Positions 1 to 8,790 of a DNA stretch of 64,000 nt are shown here, one piece after another. The notes beneath the pieces are model-generated. The model saw only the letters and a list, made by a program, of their open reading frames with translations, did no database searches and was not told where the DNA came from. The stretch comes from Sulfurovum sp. TSL6. GTDB lineage: Bacteria; Campylobacterota; Campylobacteria; Campylobacterales; Sulfurovaceae. The translations under genes were made by a program, and so were the position numbers. Each line of letters starts with the position of its first letter. Position 1 is the first letter of the stretch. The stretch is from the NCBI RefSeq assembly GCF_019972115.1, contig NZ_BPFJ01000003.1:1-64000 (forward strand). Direction: 5' to 3'.

Positions 1-75
1 CTGGAAGTCAAGCCTCCCATCGCCGATAATACTGCAGGCTACGTCTGTGGAAATGTAGGTCGCTGCCACTTTGAG
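1..75 (+). rRNA. rrf: 5S ribosomal RNA, 3' part only
   Basis: The first ~75 bases read as the 3' half of a bacterial 5S rRNA. They contain the CGCCGATAATACTG segment (compare CGCCGATGGTAGTG in E. coli) and end in GGTCGCTGCCA, which would pair with the missing 5' end. The 5' half lies outside the window, so 23S and 16S genes probably lie further left. The 3' boundary is estimated to within a few bases. Confidence 0.85.
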
Positions 76-179
76 TTATAACACACACTTCATTTTTACA
101 ATCAATCAACTCTTATCAATATTCAGTTTTTTATCAAGTTATTATTTTATCTTTTTACATATGATTTACACTCATAGGT

Positions 180-185
180 TATAAT
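180..185 (+). promoter_or_regulatory. -10 box of candidate sRNA A
   Basis: A perfect TATAAT followed by AC lies 9 nt before the 5' arm of the sRNA A closing stem, so transcription would begin near 192. The same TATAATAC is found at the same place before copy B. There is no clear -35 box, only T-rich sequence upstream, which is normal for Campylobacterota sigma-70 promoters. Confidence 0.6.
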
Positions 186-191
186 ACGTGC

Positions 192-285
192 AGAAAAGAT
201 AACCATTAGCTTTTATGAGATCGTGTTTTACTCTTGTCCAATATAAGTAGTCTTCCTTGATATTTCTTGTATCGGTTATCTTTTT
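192..285 (+). ncRNA. candidate small RNA, copy A of a tandem pair
   Basis: This segment of about 94 nt has its own TATAAT box and a perfect 10-bp closing stem (AAAGATAACC at 195-204 with GGTTATCTTT at 274-283). The stem runs into a short T tract, so it could end transcription itself. The interior keeps blocks also present in copy B at 393-484: GAGAT, TGTTTTACTC, TTGTCCAA and CTTCCTTG. It has no convincing reading frame. The C- and U-rich blocks would sit in loops and resemble anti-Shine-Dalgarno seeds. TTTACTC (227-233) and TTGTCCAA (234-241) are complementary to 703-709 and 682-689 in the leader of the porin gene downstream. I recognise no named RNA family. Confidence 0.6.
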
Positions 286-380
286 CTAAAAAGTCTTTCT
301 TTCACCTTCAATTATAATTGTTCTTTCAGAATTAAACCTTTGATTAATGCTCTATTTACTCCTCATTAACTCCCATCGTT

Positions 381-386
381 TATAAT
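381..386 (+). promoter_or_regulatory. -10 box of candidate sRNA B
   Basis: A perfect TATAAT followed by AC, 8 nt before the closing stem of copy B. Position and sequence match the box before copy A, so promoter and transcript appear to have been duplicated together. Predicted start is near 393. Confidence 0.6.
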
Positions 387-392
387 ACAAAC

Positions 393-484
393 ATAAAGGT
401 AACCATCTCCCTTCAAGAGATTTGTTTTACTCCTTGTCCAAAATTTGTAAACTTCCTTGTTTCTCTTGACACGGTTATCTTTTA
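393..484 (+). ncRNA. candidate small RNA, copy B of a tandem pair
   Basis: Second copy of the structured element at 192-285. Its closing stem is AAAGGTAACC (395-404) with GGTTATCTTT (473-482). The one difference from copy A in the 5' arm turns an A-U pair into a G-U pair, so the stem is kept. Interior blocks shared with copy A are GAGAT, TGTTTTACTC, TTGTCCAA and CTTCCTTG. TTTACTCCTT (426-435) and TTGTCCAAAA (434-443) are perfectly complementary to 700-709 (the Shine-Dalgarno) and 680-689 in the porin leader. TTTTACTCCTT is also complementary over 11 nt to the ribosome binding site of the exported protein gene at 13168-15369. Function as a trans- or neighbour-acting sRNA is inferred. Confidence 0.6.
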
Positions 485-486
485 TT

Positions 487-531
487 GAAGAGCCTATCCC
501 TCCCGATATAACTCCCTTTTTTAGGCTCTTC
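487..531 (+). ncRNA. C-rich stem-loop, third element or terminator
   Basis: A perfect 10-bp stem, GAAGAGCCTA (487-496) with TAGGCTCTTC (522-531), encloses a 25-nt loop carrying three CCC runs (TCCC, CTCCC, CTCCC). The stem is followed by a T-rich stretch. It could be the terminator of copy B, a third small RNA, or a separate C-rich loop acting on Shine-Dalgarno sequences. The loop is unusually long for an intrinsic terminator. Confidence 0.45.
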
Positions 532-638
532 GTTTATCTTTTGATCTGTCTTTTTTTTCTTTGATTGCATCTCTTTTTATAACATTTATAACCTTGTATT
601 AATTATATTCAAAATATTTACAAATTTTATTTATTTAA

Positions 639-664
639 GTCTAAAATCAGTCTAATTGGTCTAA
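639..664 (+). repeat. three GTCTAA direct repeats before the porin gene
   Basis: GTCTAA occurs at 639-644, 650-655 and 659-664, spaced 11 and 9 bases, close to one helical turn. The repeats overlap a possible -10 (TAAAAT at 642-647), some 50-70 bases before the porin start. They could be an operator. No regulator can be named from the sequence. Confidence 0.35.
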
Positions 665-710
665 ACTAACCGTTACATGTTTTGGACAAACATAAATTAA
701 AGGAGTAAAC

Positions 711-2276
711 ATGAAAAGAATTATAACAGCGTCACTTGTTGCAGCACTTGCAGTAACTAGTGTTCAGGCAGAATCTTTGTCAGACAGACTAAGTTCAGTA
801 GAAGCAGAGTTAGCTAAGGTCACTAAAAAGCTTAAAAAACAAAATAAGAAGATCAATGAAGTAAAAGCACACGATGCAGGAGATAACATCAAATGGGGTG
901 TTGACTTAAGAACATCTATCGATAACATCAACTATGATATGGCAGATGGTACTGAAAGAGGTAAAAATGACCTTATGGCTACAAGATTGTGGTTAAACAT
1001 GGCTTATGCTCCAGATGCTCACAATGTATTTAAAGGACAACTGGCTTACAATAAAGCATTTGGTGCTGATCTTGGTGCAACTACTGCCCCAGCACTTAAT
1101 CCATTTGGTATGAGAGGTACTGGATTTGATGTTTTTAACTGGTTCTCTAATGAGTCATTGACAAATGATAACCTTAAAGTAAGACAAGCATACTGGTTGT
1201 ATCTAGGTGAGAAAGCATTTGGTTTGGATATGCCTTGGACATTCTCTGTAGGTAGAAGACCATCAACAAATGGATTCCTTGCAAACCTTAGAGATGATGA
1301 TGCAGCACAATCACCACTTGGTCACATTATCAACGTTGAATTCGATGGTTTAAGCTCAAAACTTGATCTTTCAAAAATTACTGGTGTACCAGGTATGTCA
1401 TTTAAACTATGTATGGGACAAGGTTCTACTAATGCAACACCTATGTATGGTAATTTAGCGTATACAGCATATGCGAATGATGATGCTTCTATGGAAGATA
1501 TCAAGCTTGCAGGATTTATCTTTGAACCATATAATGATGGTCAGTACATTGTAAAAACTACAGCATTTAGAGCTTATGACCTTCCTGGATTTAATACAGC
1601 TAATATGTTGGGAGCATTGGGTATGAATCCTCTTATTGCTCCAGAGGATGCTACAATGAACCAAAATGGTGATATTGACGGTGCTGCGATTTCTGTGTTG
1701 GTTGACGGTGTGACAGATGATGGATACTTTTCTGATGTAAAACTATTTGCTTCTTTGGCAGGGACTAAAACAAAAGCAGATGCAGATGGACAAATGTTAG
1801 GTATGGATGCTACTGCAATGGGGCTAGGAATCATCGGAGCTGACTATGGTGAAGATAAAGGAGGTCACTCTTACTGGGTTGGTGCACAGCTTCCTGTAAA
1901 TGTGGGTGATGAGAATTATGGTAAACTTGGTGCAGAGTTTAACCACGGTAGTAAATATTGGAGACCATTTGACTATGCAGAAGATACTATGGTCGGTTCT
2001 AAATTGGCTGCACGTGGTGATGCATGGGAAGTATATTATACTTATCAAATCAATGAAGCGTTAAGTGCTCAATTCAGATATACTCAAATTGATTATGACT
2101 ATACCGGAAGTAATGGATTCTTCGCTTCAGGCGGTACTCCACTTAAAATTGATGATCTTAAAGTTATGGCAACAGGTGCTATGGGACCAGCTGCACAAGG
2201 GTTGGCACAAGCATTCTTACCAAATGTTGTTGAAAAAGCAACAGATGCTAGATTCTACCTCAGATATAGATTCTAA
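711..2276 (+). CDS. outer-membrane porin-like protein (DUF3373 type)
   Basis: A 521-residue exported protein. Residues 1-20 form a signal peptide ending VQA-ES. Residues ~22-50 form a short, lysine-rich coiled coil (SVEAELAKVTKKLKKQNKK). The rest is glycine-, aromatic- and aspartate-rich with alternating polarity, as expected of an outer-membrane beta-barrel, and the last residues (FYLRYRF) end in the terminal phenylalanine typical of barrel proteins. The layout matches the DUF3373 porin-like family common in Campylobacterota; substrate unknown. The start is fixed by AAAGGAG 5 nt upstream. The leader carries sequences complementary to the two candidate sRNAs upstream, and a strong terminator follows, so it is probably a monocistronic, post-transcriptionally regulated gene. 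Confidence 0.8.
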   Translation: MKRIITASLVAALAVTSVQAESLSDRLSSVEAELAKVTKKLKKQNKKINEVKAHDAGDNIKWGVDLRTSIDNINYDMADGTERGKNDLMATRLWLNMAYAPDAHNVFKGQLAYNKAFGADLGATTAPALNPFGMRGTGFDVFNWFSNESLTNDNLKVRQAYWLYLGEKAFGLDMPWTFSVGRRPSTNGFLANLRDDDAAQSPLGHIINVEFDGLSSKLDLSKITGVPGMSFKLCMGQGSTNATPMYGNLAYTAYANDDASMEDIKLAGFIFEPYNDGQYIVKTTAFRAYDLPGFNTANMLGALGMNPLIAPEDATMNQNGDIDGAAISVLVDGVTDDGYFSDVKLFASLAGTKTKADADGQMLGMDATAMGLGIIGADYGEDKGGHSYWVGAQLPVNVGDENYGKLGAEFNHGSKYWRPFDYAEDTMVGSKLAARGDAWEVYYTYQINEALSAQFRYTQIDYDYTGSNGFFASGGTPLKIDDLKVMATGAMGPAAQGLAQAFLPNVVEKATDARFYLRYRF

Positions 2277-4071: not shown

Positions 4072-4509
4072 GTGAATAAAAGTAATGCAGAAGCAATAGA
4101 ACAATTTTATAAACTGGTTGAAGAAAATATGGATAACGGCATGGTGTACAGAGATGCCATAGAGTTGGCTGCAGTCACTGTAGGAGGACTTATAACCGCT
4201 AAAGTCTCTCAGGCGATGGCGAAGTATCAAGAAGCGATACACCCGCAGTCTCATTTGTCACAAGAAGAAGATACAGATGCCTTGGCCCTGTTAAGTATGG
4301 GAGTACTTTGGGATAATACCTATTTTAATCCGATAGAGCCGGATCCCTCTACTCCTTTGGAAAATACTTTGGCTGAATCCATTTATTTTATTATGAAGTA
4401 TGGCAGAGAGGAAGATGGGTTGAACAAAGCATTAGAAGCCAATGAAAAGACGGTGGGGGATGTAGAGTCACGTGCTGAAGCCATACGAAGAGTATTGGGA
4501 AAAGTATGA
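4072..4509 (+). CDS. unknown cytoplasmic protein coupled to a SoxY-like gene
   Basis: A 145-residue acidic, mostly helical protein with no signal peptide or membrane segment; I recognise no family. The start is GTG with AGGA about 7 nt upstream; the nearby ATG at 4065 runs into a stop after four codons. A middle segment is proline- and acid-rich (NPIEPDPSTPLENT), and the C-terminal third looks helical. The stop overlaps the ATG of the SoxY-like gene in an ATGA arrangement (4506-4509), so the two are very likely translated together. The context suggests a role with that SoxY-like protein, but nothing in the sequence shows what it is. Confidence 0.7.
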   Translation: MNKSNAEAIEQFYKLVEENMDNGMVYRDAIELAAVTVGGLITAKVSQAMAKYQEAIHPQSHLSQEEDTDALALLSMGVLWDNTYFNPIEPDPSTPLENTLAESIYFIMKYGREEDGLNKALEANEKTVGDVESRAEAIRRVLGKV

Positions 4510-4973
4510 ATCGACGCCATTTTTTAGTTTTGGGTTTTTGTATATTCCCCTACACGGCAGAGGTATTCGCTGTAGATTATAGAAAGCGCAAACCTCTAGC
4601 ATGGAAGGCCTCTTCGATCAATGATGCAGCACTGGCACTGTACGGAAGAGAAAAATTTGCAACGATCCAAAAGAGTACAGATATAGAACTTATCGTTCCT
4701 AAGGGCATCGTAAGAGATCCGGAAAACATACCCATTACTATACGTTCATCTATCAAAGCGAAAAGCCTTGCTGTTTTCCAAGATGCCAATCCCAAGAGTT
4801 TAGTCGCAGTCTTTCATTTGAGTGAAGAGAGTATTATCGAGTATGAGCTTAATATGAGGATGGAGTTTAAGGGAACCGTTTTTGCCGTACTTGAAGGCTT
4901 GGATGGCAAACTCTATTATACACGAGAATATATTGAGGTACTCCTATTAAGCTGTATGGGTTCTGGAGAGTAA
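4506..4973 (+). CDS. SoxY-like sulfur carrier with atypical C-terminus
   Basis: 155 residues beginning with a Tat-type signal (NRRHFLVLG). The mature region aligns with the SoxY encoded at 7954: VDYRKRKPLAW matches IDFRATKPDTW, a VAVFQDANP-type stretch (LAVFQDANPKSLV) is shared, and VLEGLDGKLYYT matches VEGRDGKFYVG. SoxY carries sulfur intermediates covalently on a cysteine in a flexible C-terminal GGCGG-type arm. Here the arm reads LLLSCMGSGE: the cysteine is kept but the double glycine before it is lost. It may be a divergent carrier, or a partner that no longer swings between Sox enzymes. It is coupled to the upstream 145-aa gene and separated from soxC by 272 bp holding a promoter. A SoxY paralogue is likely; activity is uncertain. 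Confidence 0.7.
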   Translation: MNRRHFLVLGFCIFPYTAEVFAVDYRKRKPLAWKASSINDAALALYGREKFATIQKSTDIELIVPKGIVRDPENIPITIRSSIKAKSLAVFQDANPKSLVAVFHLSEESIIEYELNMRMEFKGTVFAVLEGLDGKLYYTREYIEVLLLSCMGSGE

Positions 4974-5174
4974 CTTGGTTGTTTTATAGGGTTTAAAATG
5001 ATATTTCATTGGGGGGGAGTCTTTTAGGTCAGTATGGCATACTATATATAATATTTATGATAATTATATGGTTTTTTTATCTTTGTGGTGCATATTCGTT
5101 ACAGATAGAAGATAATTATGGATATTATAGGGACAGATTGATCATTTTAATCCCTAACTTTTATTTTTTTTGAA

Positions 5175-5180
5175 TATAAT
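5175..5180 (+). promoter_or_regulatory. promoter -10 of the soxCDYZ operon
   Basis: TATAAT after a T-rich stretch, with transcription expected near 5187. The leader of about 60 nt has AAGGCATA twice (5183-5190 and 5201-5208), and CTAAGG (5181-5186) could pair with CCTTAG (5212-5217). A strong AAGGAGG precedes the soxC ATG. The repeats lie at the transcription start, where a repressor or leader structure could act. The remaining gap sequence (4974-5170) shows no gene. Confidence 0.6.
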
Positions 5181-5245
5181 CTAAGGCATATGACGAAATT
5201 AAGGCATACATCCTTAGTCATTTTAAAATTAATCAAGGAGGACAA

Positions 5246-6595
5246 ATGAATAAGATAACAAAAGAAGAGTTTGACGTTGTTTCTGAAGTATCAGAGCAGA
5301 CATCAAGAAGAAACTTTTTCAAGAAAACAGCAACTTATTCTATGGGCGCATTGGCTGCAGCTAGTGTTGTCGCACCCGTCACAATAGATGCGAGTGAGCA
5401 TATTAAAGCAAACCCAGAGGATGATCCAAACATCATGGAAGAGAAGCCATGGAGCCTTAAATTCGGTGCTCCAGTAACAGAGAACCTGTACGGTCAGCCA
5501 TCACCATATGAGCATGCAGTTACAAGAAGAACAACACCTATTCTTTCTTCAGGTAACTACAGAGCATCAATTGCGGTTACACCTATTCAGGATCTAAACG
5601 GTATTATCACACCGAATGGTCTTTTCTTTAACAGACATCACGGTGGTACACCAACCATTGACCCTAACCAACATAGACTTATGATTCACGGTCTTGTGGA
5701 AAAGCCGATTGTTTTAACGATGGACCAGTTGAAAAGATATCCAAATGTAAGTAGAGTACACTTTCTTGAGTGTCCAGCAAATGGTGGACCGGAGTGGAGA
5801 GGCCCTCAGTTCAATTCTATCCAATTTGCAAAAGGGTTTATGTCTTGTGCTGAGTGGACTGGTGTTTACATCAAAGATATTCTTAAAGACCTCGGTCTTA
5901 AGCCAGAGGCACAATGGATGCTTGCAGAAGGTATAGATAACTCTCACATGGGTAGAACGATCCCTGTAGATAAAGTACTTGATGATGCAATGATCGTTTG
6001 GGGACAAAATGGTGAAGCATTACGTCCAGAGCAAGGTTACCCGATCAGAATCGTTGTTCCAGGTTGGGAAGCAAACTTATGTGTGAAGTGGCTATGTAGA
6101 CTTGAGTTCGCATCTGAGCCATTCTATGCAAAAGAAGAGACATCTAAATATACGGCATTGAAGCACACAGGTAAAGCGATCCAGCACTTCTATGCAAACG
6201 AAGTTAACTCTGTTATTACTTCACCTTGTCCTGAGAAACCATGGACTGATCTTAAAAAAGGTGATATGGTAGAGATAGAAGGACTTGCATGGTCTGGTAT
6301 GGGTACGATTACAACAGTGGATGTATCATTTGACGGTGGTAAAAACTGGGTAGAAGCATCACTTAAAGGTTTAGTGCTTGAAAAAGCTTGGACTAGATTC
6401 TCTATTATGCATGAATATACAGGTAAGCCAATGCTTCTTAGTTCACGTGCATCAGATGATGCAGGACACATTCAGCCGACAGTGAAAAATGAAAGAGCTG
6501 CTGTGGGAATCGAAGGTGTTTACCATAGAAATGGTATCCATACATGGGAAATAGATGCAAAAGGAGAGGTTACAAATGTACAAATCTTATCGTAA
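5246..6595 (+). CDS. soxC: SoxC, molybdenum subunit of sulfane dehydrogenase
   Basis: 449 residues. SoxC is the molybdopterin subunit of Sox(CD)2, which oxidises the sulfane sulfur held on SoxY in the periplasm. A Tat signal is visible (SRRNFFKK at residues 20-27, hydrophobic stretch to about 48, cleavage near IDA), as expected for a cofactor-loaded export. The sulfite-oxidase fold follows, with HFLECPANG placing the molybdenum-ligand cysteine at residue 176. The C-terminal part matches the Mo-co dimerisation domain (VDVSFDGGKNW, ARASDDAGHIQP-like SRASDDAGHIQP). It heads soxC-soxD-soxY-soxZ, overlapping soxD by 20 nt. The Shine-Dalgarno is AAGGAGG 5 nt before the ATG. Confidence 0.93.
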   Translation: MNKITKEEFDVVSEVSEQTSRRNFFKKTATYSMGALAAASVVAPVTIDASEHIKANPEDDPNIMEEKPWSLKFGAPVTENLYGQPSPYEHAVTRRTTPILSSGNYRASIAVTPIQDLNGIITPNGLFFNRHHGGTPTIDPNQHRLMIHGLVEKPIVLTMDQLKRYPNVSRVHFLECPANGGPEWRGPQFNSIQFAKGFMSCAEWTGVYIKDILKDLGLKPEAQWMLAEGIDNSHMGRTIPVDKVLDDAMIVWGQNGEALRPEQGYPIRIVVPGWEANLCVKWLCRLEFASEPFYAKEETSKYTALKHTGKAIQHFYANEVNSVITSPCPEKPWTDLKKGDMVEIEGLAWSGMGTITTVDVSFDGGKNWVEASLKGLVLEKAWTRFSIMHEYTGKPMLLSSRASDDAGHIQPTVKNERAAVGIEGVYHRNGIHTWEIDAKGEVTNVQILS

Positions 6596-7853
6596 AAAAA
6601 TTGTTGCAAGTACACTGCTTGCATCTGTAGTATTTTTAGGAACTGCTTGTAATGCATCTAACGGTACAAAGGATACAGCTGAGGCAAAGCCTGCAGCTGA
6701 AACAAAAAGTGTAGCACCAGCAACTACAACAATGAATACAGAAGGTTTCACTAAAAGAGAAATAGATGCGGTAGGTCCAGCAAATGCTTTAGTATCTGAT
6801 AGTGTTAAGAAGACATATGAGCACAATGGTAAACTTGCTGTTGACGGTGGGGTGATCTACCCGATCGTAAATGGTAAGACAGGTGCGTATTATGCAAATG
6901 AAGAAGCACATAAAACACCATTTAACAAAGGTAAAAGAGCAACTGAAAACGAGCAGAAAGCTTGGGATATAGATGTTATGCCTGACGGTACGGGACTTCC
7001 TGAAGGTTCAGGTACTGTAGAAGAGGGTGATGAGCTTTATGAAGAAAAATGTCTATCTTGTCACGGTGACTTTGGTGCCGGTTCTGGACTTTACCCAAGA
7101 CTTACTGTTGGTAATGCATATGAAATGCAAAAAACAATGAAACTTCAACGTGTAAATCCAGACTCTGACGGTCCTCAGCGTGGATTTGGTTCGTACTGGC
7201 CGTATGCAAGTACATTGTGGTGGTATATTAAAACGGGTATGCCTCATCAAGCACCTATGTCTTTAACAACAGACGAAGTGTATGCTTTAGCTGCATATGT
7301 TCTTTATATCAATGAGTTGAAGATCGATGGAGAGCTTGTAGATGATGAGTATGAACTTGACAGAGAGAAGTTCTTAAAGATCGTTATGCCAAACGTTGAT
7401 GGTTTTGAGCCTGATATTAATGGTCCAAAAGGACAAGACAATGCACGTGAATACTATAACAATCCATTAAATTATGGTAATGGTGTGAGATGTATGAAAG
7501 ACTGTTTTGAAGGTGAGCCAGAAATACAGAGAATTGCATTTGCACTGACTGACTTTAACCCACCGTTGAGTTCTGAAAAAACATTGCCAGAAGTAACAGA
7601 GGCAGCACCTGCAGCACCAGGAAAAGACACATATGACGCAAGTTGTAAAGTATGTCATGAAACAGATGCAATGGGTGCTCCGGCTGTAGGTGATAAAGCG
7701 GCTTGGGCTGCAGCACTTGAAAAAGGTATAGACCAAGTTTATCATAATGCTATCAATGGAAAAGGCGGTATGCCTCCAAAAGGTGGTGCTATGGATCTTT
7801 CAGATGAGAAAGTGAAAGAAGTAGTTGATTATATGATAGAAGCAAGTAAATAA
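6576..7853 (+). CDS. soxD: SoxD, diheme cytochrome c subunit of sulfane dehydrogenase
   Basis: 425 residues from the ATG at 6576, which has AAGGAG 9 nt upstream; an earlier in-frame ATG at 6555 inside soxC lacks a binding site. The N-terminus is a signal peptide ending LGTAC, possibly a lipoprotein signal with a weak lipobox. An alanine/threonine-rich linker follows (residues ~30-55). Two c-type heme motifs are present, CLSCH (159-163) and CKVCH (357-361), each with a downstream methionine in an MPxxxG/MPPK context. SoxD takes electrons from SoxC and passes them to the respiratory chain. It overlaps soxC by 20 nt, which suggests coupled translation. Confidence 0.9.
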   Translation: MYKSYRKKIVASTLLASVVFLGTACNASNGTKDTAEAKPAAETKSVAPATTTMNTEGFTKREIDAVGPANALVSDSVKKTYEHNGKLAVDGGVIYPIVNGKTGAYYANEEAHKTPFNKGKRATENEQKAWDIDVMPDGTGLPEGSGTVEEGDELYEEKCLSCHGDFGAGSGLYPRLTVGNAYEMQKTMKLQRVNPDSDGPQRGFGSYWPYASTLWWYIKTGMPHQAPMSLTTDEVYALAAYVLYINELKIDGELVDDEYELDREKFLKIVMPNVDGFEPDINGPKGQDNAREYYNNPLNYGNGVRCMKDCFEGEPEIQRIAFALTDFNPPLSSEKTLPEVTEAAPAAPGKDTYDASCKVCHETDAMGAPAVGDKAAWAAALEKGIDQVYHNAINGKGGMPPKGGAMDLSDEKVKEVVDYMIEASK

Positions 7854-7953
7854 CTGTGAGTTATCACAATTATTACACAATATATAAGTAATATAAGATA
7901 TGAGGTTGGCTGATGTCGACCTTTTATCTAAATTTTTGTACAAAGGAAATAAA

Positions 7954-8400
7954 ATGGATAGAAGAAAATTTATGAGTTTAAGTATGGTTGCAGCTGCTGT
8001 ATTGCCAGCAAGTTTATCTGCAATTGATTTCAGAGCTACAAAGCCTGATACATGGACTGCACACACTGTAGCAGATTCAATTAAAGCACTTTACGGTGAT
8101 ATCAAACCAGAAGAAAAAGGTGTAAAAGTTAAAGCACCAAAAGTAGCAAGTAACGGTGGAGCTGTTCCTGTAACTGTTGAATCTGATATCGATGCTAAAA
8201 CTGTAGCTGTTTTCCAAGATGCAAACCCTGAAGCAACAGTATGTGTATTTGATGTACAAGAAGGTGGAATTGTTGACTATGGTTTTAAGATCAAAATGAA
8301 AAAATCTGGTACGATCACTGCAATCGTTGAAGGTAGAGATGGTAAGTTCTATGTAGGTAACGTAACACTTGAAGTTGCACTTGGTGGATGTGAAGGTTAA
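7954..8400 (+). CDS. soxY: SoxY, sulfur-carrier protein
   Basis: 148 residues from ATG 7954 (AAAGGA 7 nt upstream; the in-frame ATG at 7900 gives an unlikely extension with no signal). The N-terminus is Tat-like (DRRKFMSLS, alanine-rich core, cleavage near LSA). The C-terminus GGCEG* is a slight variant of the SoxY GGCGG swinging arm; its cysteine binds thiosulfate-derived sulfur as the thioconjugate handed between SoxAX, SoxB and SoxCD. It is separated from soxD by 100 bp and followed 75 bp later by soxZ, its partner. Confidence 0.9.
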   Translation: MDRRKFMSLSMVAAAVLPASLSAIDFRATKPDTWTAHTVADSIKALYGDIKPEEKGVKVKAPKVASNGGAVPVTVESDIDAKTVAVFQDANPEATVCVFDVQEGGIVDYGFKIKMKKSGTITAIVEGRDGKFYVGNVTLEVALGGCEG

Positions 8401-8475
8401 CCCTTCCCCTCAACCAGCAAGACTAGGTTTAAAACTTAATAGATATAAACAGAAATAGAAAGAAAAAGGAATATT

Positions 8476-8790
8476 ATGGGTAATATGAGAATTAAAGCGA
8501 AGCTTAAAGAAGATGTAGTTAATGCAAAAATAAGTGCTAAACATGACATGCTTACATACGATCAAGCAAAGAAAAAAGGTGTGGATGCAAACTTTATCAC
8601 ACATATCACAGCGACAGTGAACGGAAAAGTAGTATATGATGTATCTACAAGCCAATTCTGGTCTAAAAATCCATTGTTTAAATTTAAGTTTAAAGCTGAT
8701 GGATTGAAGAAAGGTGATAAGATAGAGATCACTTGGAAAGATCTTAAAGGTAATACTGTTACTGAATCTAAAGAGATCAAAGGTCTTTAA
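8476..8790 (+). CDS. soxZ: SoxZ, partner of SoxY
   Basis: 104 residues with no signal peptide and no cysteine, as usual for SoxZ, which is exported bound to Tat-carried SoxY. The immunoglobulin-like sandwich signature is clear: MRIKAKL at the start, HDMLTYDQAKKKG, FITHITATVNGKVV, and the ending KGDKIEITWKDLKG. AAAAGGA 7 nt before the ATG sets the start. It is the last gene of the sox operon and is followed by two hairpins. Confidence 0.92.
   Translation: MGNMRIKAKLKEDVVNAKISAKHDMLTYDQAKKKGVDANFITHITATVNGKVVYDVSTSQFWSKNPLFKFKFKADGLKKGDKIEITWKDLKGNTVTESKEIKGL

Follow-up and report, generated by a model that had tools for sequence, protein, structure and literature searches.

In enterobacteria, the stress- or regulator-controlled sRNAs MicF, MicC, OmrA/B and RybB block the translation of outer-membrane protein mRNAs; these RNAs depend on Hfq and pair through a 5' seed, and OmrA/B are tandem siblings under OmpR. 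The CcsR-type and cuckoo-family sRNAs of alphaproteobacteria are multicopy, C-rich and carry pyrimidine-rich anti-Shine-Dalgarno motifs in their loops. The streptococcal csRNAs are sibling sRNAs controlled by CiaR, whose promoters contain TTTAAG-N5-TTTAAG 10 nt before TATAAT (PMC3091779). RepG of Helicobacter pylori targets tlpB (PMC8322730), while CJnc190 of Campylobacter jejuni is processed by RNase III and targets ptmG (PMC8687705). Hfq and ProQ are reported to be absent in both species (PMC8322730, PMC8687705), and a comparison of epsilonproteobacterial transcriptomes found that ncRNAs except 6S are unconserved even between C. jejuni and H. pylori (PMC3847290).

A tandem pair of putative sRNAs was located in Sulfurovum sp. 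TSL6, in the window (the whole 64,000-nucleotide stretch of DNA that was analysed), and is followed by a gene encoding a DUF3373 protein (Table 1). A first-pass annotation had proposed two sibling structured RNAs with their own promoters next to an rRNA operon. The siblings proved to be real: their alignment, which takes in the promoter, averages 83% column identity across 162 columns. The blocks GAGAT, TGTTTTACTC, TTGTCCAA and CTTCCTTG are present in both copies, and the ten-base closing stems were located as described; the sole change between them (AAAGATAACC versus AAAGGTAACC, against the same GGTTATCTTT) converts an A-U to a G-U pair, as had been claimed. In each copy the interior is rich in pyrimidines and the 3' arm of the stem continues into T, although what had been read as a separate final stem is in fact the 3' arm of the closing stem. 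A 5S gene does adjoin the pair, but the contig begins inside the rRNA operon and only the last ~76 nt of that gene are present at its end. Furthermore, the genome contains three copies rather than two: the third, in a match of 184 bases with 85% identity, follows a second 5S end where contig C1 begins, and C1 opens with the same 5S-end sequence as the window. This copy had been missed, together with the inner stem, the 11-bp-repeat promoter and the target described below. The resemblance goes well beyond chance, as copy 1 was recovered by the family profile (E = 3.6e-9) and was scored at 49 bits (E = 1.5e-10) by a covariance model whose source copies included copy 2 but not copy 1.

Table 1. 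Features of the putative sRNA locus and its predicted target (positions in the window).
Feature	Position	Strand	Evidence or remark
3' end of 5S rRNA gene	1-76	+	Rfam RF00001, 21.8 bits, truncated
Copy 1 promoter-upstream region, TTWAY repeats at 11-bp spacing before -10	139-179	+	motif score 32.6
Copy 1 -10 box TATAAT	180-185	+	15 nt ahead of closing stem
Putative sRNA copy 1, closing stem 195-204/274-283, TGAGATCGTGTTTTACTCTTGTCCAA loop	192-285	+	
Copy 2 promoter-upstream region, ATTAATGCTCT-ATTTACTCCTC-ATTAACTCCCA, three 11-bp repeats	340-380	+	motif score 52.7
Copy 2 -10 box TATAAT	381-386	+	
Putative sRNA copy 2, main hairpin, closing stem 395-404/473-482	393-484	+	
Near-invariant seed GTTTTACTCCTTGTCCAAAA in copy 2, complementary to the DUF3373 mRNA leader	424-443	+	
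Second conserved block TGTAAACTTCCTTGTT in copy 2	446-461	+	motif recurs in 3' hairpins of many homologues
Copy 2 3' hairpin GAAGAGCC...GGCTCTTC, pyrimidine-rich loop, then T-rich run	487-541	+	fold z-score -4.2 with this hairpin included
DUF3373 mRNA leader and start, ACATGTTTTGGACAAACATAAATTAAAGGAGTAAACATG	675-713	+	predicted target site UUUUGGACAA and AAGGAGUAAA
DUF3373 outer-membrane porin gene, predicted target	711-2276	+	Pfam PF11853, E = 4.8e-104; porin-like fold

Structure was assessed by folding and by comparison of homologues. RNAfold z-scores of approximately -2.2 and -2.4 were obtained for the two hairpins, and of -4.2 when copy 2 was extended to position 540. Copy 2 possesses an inner stem (CAAGAGA, 414-420, with TCTCTTG, 462-468) and an additional 3' stem-loop at 487-531, with which the whole copy spans 393 to ~541; this 3' hairpin and the following T-rich run probably constitute its 3' end. 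Homologues fall into two architectures, class A with the closing stem AAAGG...CCTTT and class B with a 5' hairpin (GAAAGAG) preceding the main hairpin. When 38 class A copies were aligned by structure, pairing held in 93.7% of cells and both sides had changed in 13 of the 21 pairs of the closing and inner stems. Double-change cells numbered 121, compared with 39.7 in shuffles, and shifted controls all collapsed. This alignment was fitted to the structure and is thus biased towards pairing. With no model-fitted alignment, positions 5 to 8 of the closing stem were paired in 99% of cells across 19 sequences, against 80% with swapped partners (permutation p = 5e-5, relatedness uncontrolled). The inner stem exists as CAAGAGA/UCUCUUG, GAGAGGG/CCCUCUC, AGAAC/GUUCU and AAAGAGC/GCUCUUU, all of them paired, whereas the enclosed loop GUUUUACUCCUUGUCCAA is nearly invariant in sequence. 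The extensive compensatory change in both stems therefore indicates that the elements act as RNA. A lack of covariation in the closing stem had been named in advance as a result that would refute the proposal; covariation was looked for and was strongly present.

The family was detected by sequence profile in 51 of 78 Sulfurovum-genus genomes, at 1-6 copies each, and in 31 of the 40 good ones; in a search of 60 relatives, many genomes of the genus yielded the same core, at identities reaching 98%. Outside the genus, the profile detected no convincing member in 200 genomes of the phylum, among which four further genera of its taxonomic family are represented. Matches there, by blastn or profile, were weak only, the best being two in tandem in G053 that lie inside a protein-coding repeat on the opposite strand. 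In an independent collection, carriers of the neighbouring gene were mostly Sulfurovum. Searching the window for sRNAs against Rfam 15 gave 0 matches at the gathering threshold and none at a permissive level, the best sub-threshold sRNA being BtsR1 (16.2 bits versus 66), in agreement with the earlier remark that no named family fits. Judged against Rfam and the open-access literature, the only sources checked, the family is undescribed. The comparison supports the existence of sibling structured RNAs, with their own putative promoters, that are unlike any Rfam family.

Copies are situated after a 5S gene and before DUF3373, after a 5S gene and before an argH-like gene, or elsewhere, and tandem pairs like that of the window also occur in G089 and G091. 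In this genome the copies follow 5S genes and stand in tandem, so that they might be taken not for separate genes but for trailers or terminators of rRNA operons, or for a dispersed repeat element. We consider this very improbable, given that many siblings reside away from 5S genes and that the elements possess a conserved promoter of their own and an invariant loop with covarying stems. The loop of copy 1 is a variant, ACUC-UUGUCC, one base shorter and also found in copy 1 of G089 and G091. Orthologues of copy 1 with this shorter loop were observed in three species (window 195-283; L191, L192), which suggests a kept variant that may have its own target.

That the elements are transcribed is inferred. 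The closing stem begins 15 nt (copy 1, position 195) or 14 nt (copy 2, position 395) after the start of TATAAT, and this spacing is the same in nearly all homologues. The promoters share TATAAT or TATACT preceded by three TTWAY repeats with an 11-bp period, and this comparative evidence agrees with the first-pass assignment of a separate promoter to each sibling. In 39 sRNA promoters aligned on the -10 box, TTWAY was present at -15 in 28, at -26 in 20 and at -37 in 16; at the same positions in 162 other TATAMT sites upstream of genes, it was present in 8, 3 and 2. On this comparison, generic periodic AT promoters of epsilonproteobacteria were rejected as the source of the repeats, with the qualification that many of the 162 sites may not be real promoters. 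A promoter weight matrix applied to 464 kb of this genome identified only the two window promoters above a score of 16 and gave no match in 400 kb of a second genome (864 kb sampled in total). A simple promoter and terminator scan yielded nothing useful. Direct repeats with an 11-bp period relative to the -10 box are typical of OmpR/PhoB-family response regulators, and we infer that a regulator of this type controls the sRNA promoters.

For the DUF3373 protein, a profile search gave a match to a solved '50 kDa outer membrane protein'. The window protein is modelled with moderate confidence (pLDDT 60.6, pTM 0.64) as a beta-barrel, with best fold matches to porins such as Omp32 and OmpF and to the exporter AlgE. 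Conservation of the mRNA leader of this gene is high throughout the genus (ACAUGUUUUUGGACAAACAUAAAUUAAAGGAGUAAACAUG). Two parts of the leader, UUUUGGACAA and AAGGAGUAAA, are complementary to the sRNA loop GUUUUACUCCUUGUCCAAAA; one block is UUGGAC in the 5' part, and the other, AAGGAGUAAA, covers the Shine-Dalgarno sequence. Among 437 sampled leaders of this genome, that of DUF3373 ranked first for copies 2 and 3 (-27.2 and -30.5 kcal/mol) and only sixth for copy 1 (-22.9 kcal/mol). In G015 it ranked first of 397 sampled leaders with two different siblings, and none of 1000 shuffled cores bound the DUF3373 leader as well. These rankings cover sampled stretches of two genomes with a crude choice of start codon, and were accompanied by a genome-wide pattern search. 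In 18 whole genomes, TTGGACN{0,20}AGGAGTAA recovered the sRNA antisense and, in nearly all, the leader-type sequence, with two strays (G029 and G075). Sequence comparison thus establishes a conserved complementarity that, sRNA antisense aside, is practically unique to the DUF3373 leader in these genomes. The leader of G014 reads AGGAGTTAA and was missed by the exact pattern. In 29 further genomes, many of them picked for lacking the sRNA or the box, the pattern gave little else than DUF3373 leaders, the antisense of sRNAs and a few strays. Often, no other feature separates the sRNA from a DUF3373 gene downstream of it on the same strand. Seed drift in the sRNA is often wobble-compatible (GUUCAA, GUCCGA), and in G033 GUCC is lost from the sRNA and UUGGAC from the DUF3373 leaders. 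The likeness to multicopy pyrimidine-rich sRNAs drawn in the first-pass annotation is borne out to this extent: what the loop presents is an anti-Shine-Dalgarno sequence, and its complement is specific and conserved.

We think it probable that these are co-regulated sibling antisense sRNAs, acting in trans under regulated promoters, whose loop pairs with the DUF3373 leader in two blocks and lowers the synthesis of a major porin without Hfq. RNAs of about 90-150 nt would be transcribed from the common type of promoter, and the long covarying stem would present the invariant pyrimidine-rich loop. Within it, GUCCAA would pair with the UUGGAC of the leader's 5' part, and UUUACUCCUU would pair with AAGGAGUAAA, which comprises the Shine-Dalgarno sequence and spacer. 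Pairing over AAGGAG would block ribosome binding and so reduce porin synthesis, while the GUCC:GGAC block would supply specificity. Most likely, the sRNAs switch the porin off; repression, like direct pairing in the cell, is inferred, there being no expression or binding data.

The leader itself can fold. Its 5' CAU(G/A)UUU pairs with AAA(C/U)AUG, start codon included, and 97.9% of this stem is paired in 28 leaders, with a G-C to A-U double change in two; support is modest, as the helix hardly varies. Opening of this stem by the sRNA, which would displace its 3' strand, might activate the porin instead. The conserved pairing and the two double changes are compatible with such an effect, but AAGGAG itself would be covered by the same sRNA pairing, and at -3.9 kcal/mol the stem is weak, so that we regard activation as unlikely. 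The stem (window 675-713; L062-L090, L174-L180) is also kept in G063 and G071, both without the sRNA and the GGAC box. A local leader hairpin, AUGUUU-UUGGAC-AAACAU, was considered and rejected, being broken in several leaders (for example L068, L082 and L086), whereas the start-codon stem holds. The two GGA motifs of the leader, one in a loop and one in the Shine-Dalgarno sequence, resemble a CsrA site in geometry, which would make the resemblance to the sRNA secondary. However, conservation exceeds GGA and covers the full sRNA complement, and no CsrA gene (PF02599) was found in three good genomes (G000, G015 and G023) in which positive controls were detected. This reading is largely refuted, and we give it almost no credence. 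Hfq (PF17209) was likewise not found in the same three genomes, again with positive controls detected.

The relationship between sRNA and leader box across genomes is incomplete. Several genomes carry the sRNA without a detected DUF3373 gene (G011, G027, G006 and G018), at least four carry the box without a detected sRNA (G028, G065, G070 and G083), and G060 combines the sRNA with DUF3373 leaders that lack the box. On hand-compiled counts, the co-occurrence reaches only weak significance (Fisher p = 0.039), in part because assemblies break at the rRNA operons that adjoin these loci. Since the sRNA persists in some species in which no DUF3373 gene was detected, further targets are likely. The siblings might even serve as general anti-Shine-Dalgarno RNAs that damp a regulon of which DUF3373 is merely the best of many targets, a possibility that we take seriously without favouring it. 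AAGGAG is the common Shine-Dalgarno sequence, the sRNA is retained where DUF3373 was not detected, and a second conserved block (UGUAAACUUCCUUGUUU) together with an excess of CCUUG in the 3' hairpins (20 motifs versus 2.3 expected) suggests further targets. Conversely, complements of the second block (UGUAAACUUCCUUG) were not enriched in its own genome (51 sites versus 61 for the control), no shared target of this block emerged in two genomes, and the GUCCAA half lies outside any Shine-Dalgarno sequence and matches the DUF3373 leader specifically. In two Sulfurovaceae MAGs (L234 and L235), the leader upstream of DUF3373 keeps TTTTGGAC, with AAGGAATAATT replacing AAGGAGTAAAC; the DNA searched yielded no sRNA bearing a corresponding change.

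The best explanation for these RNAs is that they work like the streptococcal csRNAs and CJnc190 while apparently being unrelated to them in sequence. As with the csRNAs, a genome may hold several near-identical siblings at scattered intergenic positions, direct repeats with an 11-bp period lie just upstream of the -10 box, and an unpaired region is complementary to the Shine-Dalgarno and start region. They differ in phylum and sequence, in a repeat that reads TTWAY rather than TTTAAG and so does not meet the CiaR criterion, in an anti-Shine-Dalgarno sequence placed inside a long closed loop rather than between two stem-loops, and in a two-block complement to one porin leader. Judged by sequence alone, the Sulfurovum RNAs appear to work like csRNAs but do not belong to them. 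They resemble RepG and CJnc190 in having a C/U-rich loop whose complement lies in a leader or ribosome-binding site, though the family profile detected no true homologue in the 200 phylum genomes from outside the genus; those RNAs, however, are single loci in single species groups with no sibling family, their targets are not porins, and biogenesis differs (RNase III processing in CJnc190). The predicted translation block on an outer-membrane protein mRNA recalls the enterobacterial porin sRNAs, in contrast to which the seed lies in a closed loop and Hfq was not found in the Sulfurovum genomes examined. CcsR-type and cuckoo sRNAs are similarly multicopy with pyrimidine-rich anti-Shine-Dalgarno loop motifs, but the motifs differ (CCUCCUCCC instead of ACUCCUUGUCC) and no sequence relation was seen. 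Unlike the sponge RNAs CsrB and RsmY, the loops carry UCC and not repeated GGA, and CsrA was not found.

The evidence is evenly balanced as to whether the whole constitutes a genus-wide, Hfq-free porin circuit, comprising up to six siblings, one dedicated response-regulator operator, a shared two-block seed and a dedicated, almost unique site in one porin mRNA, with sRNA and target often side by side behind an rRNA operon, in which the seed may derive from an inverted copy of the porin leader. An sRNA family maintained across a whole free-living genus whose members have no detectable Hfq or CsrA, and with a target that is clear and testable, would demonstrate a separate evolution, in the Sulfurovum lineage, of envelope control through porin-repressing sRNAs, and would provide a natural system for sRNA pairing without Hfq. 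The covariance model, promoter motif and target site are ready for experiments in this ecologically important sulfur oxidiser.

Three further observations were made. A sulfur-oxidation cluster comprising two SoxY, a SoxC-like molybdopterin oxidoreductase, a cytochrome c and SoxZ is present at window positions 4506-8790. Upstream of the DUF3373 leader (window 600-680 and homologues), a conserved TTAAGTNTANACTTAG...CTAAACTA element is probably the promoter or operator of DUF3373. Finally, the block at 446-461 recurs in the downstream hairpins of L013, L014, L016, L039 and L045, and the downstream 3' hairpin itself weakly matches the covariance model, as if it were a shortened duplicate of the first hairpin.
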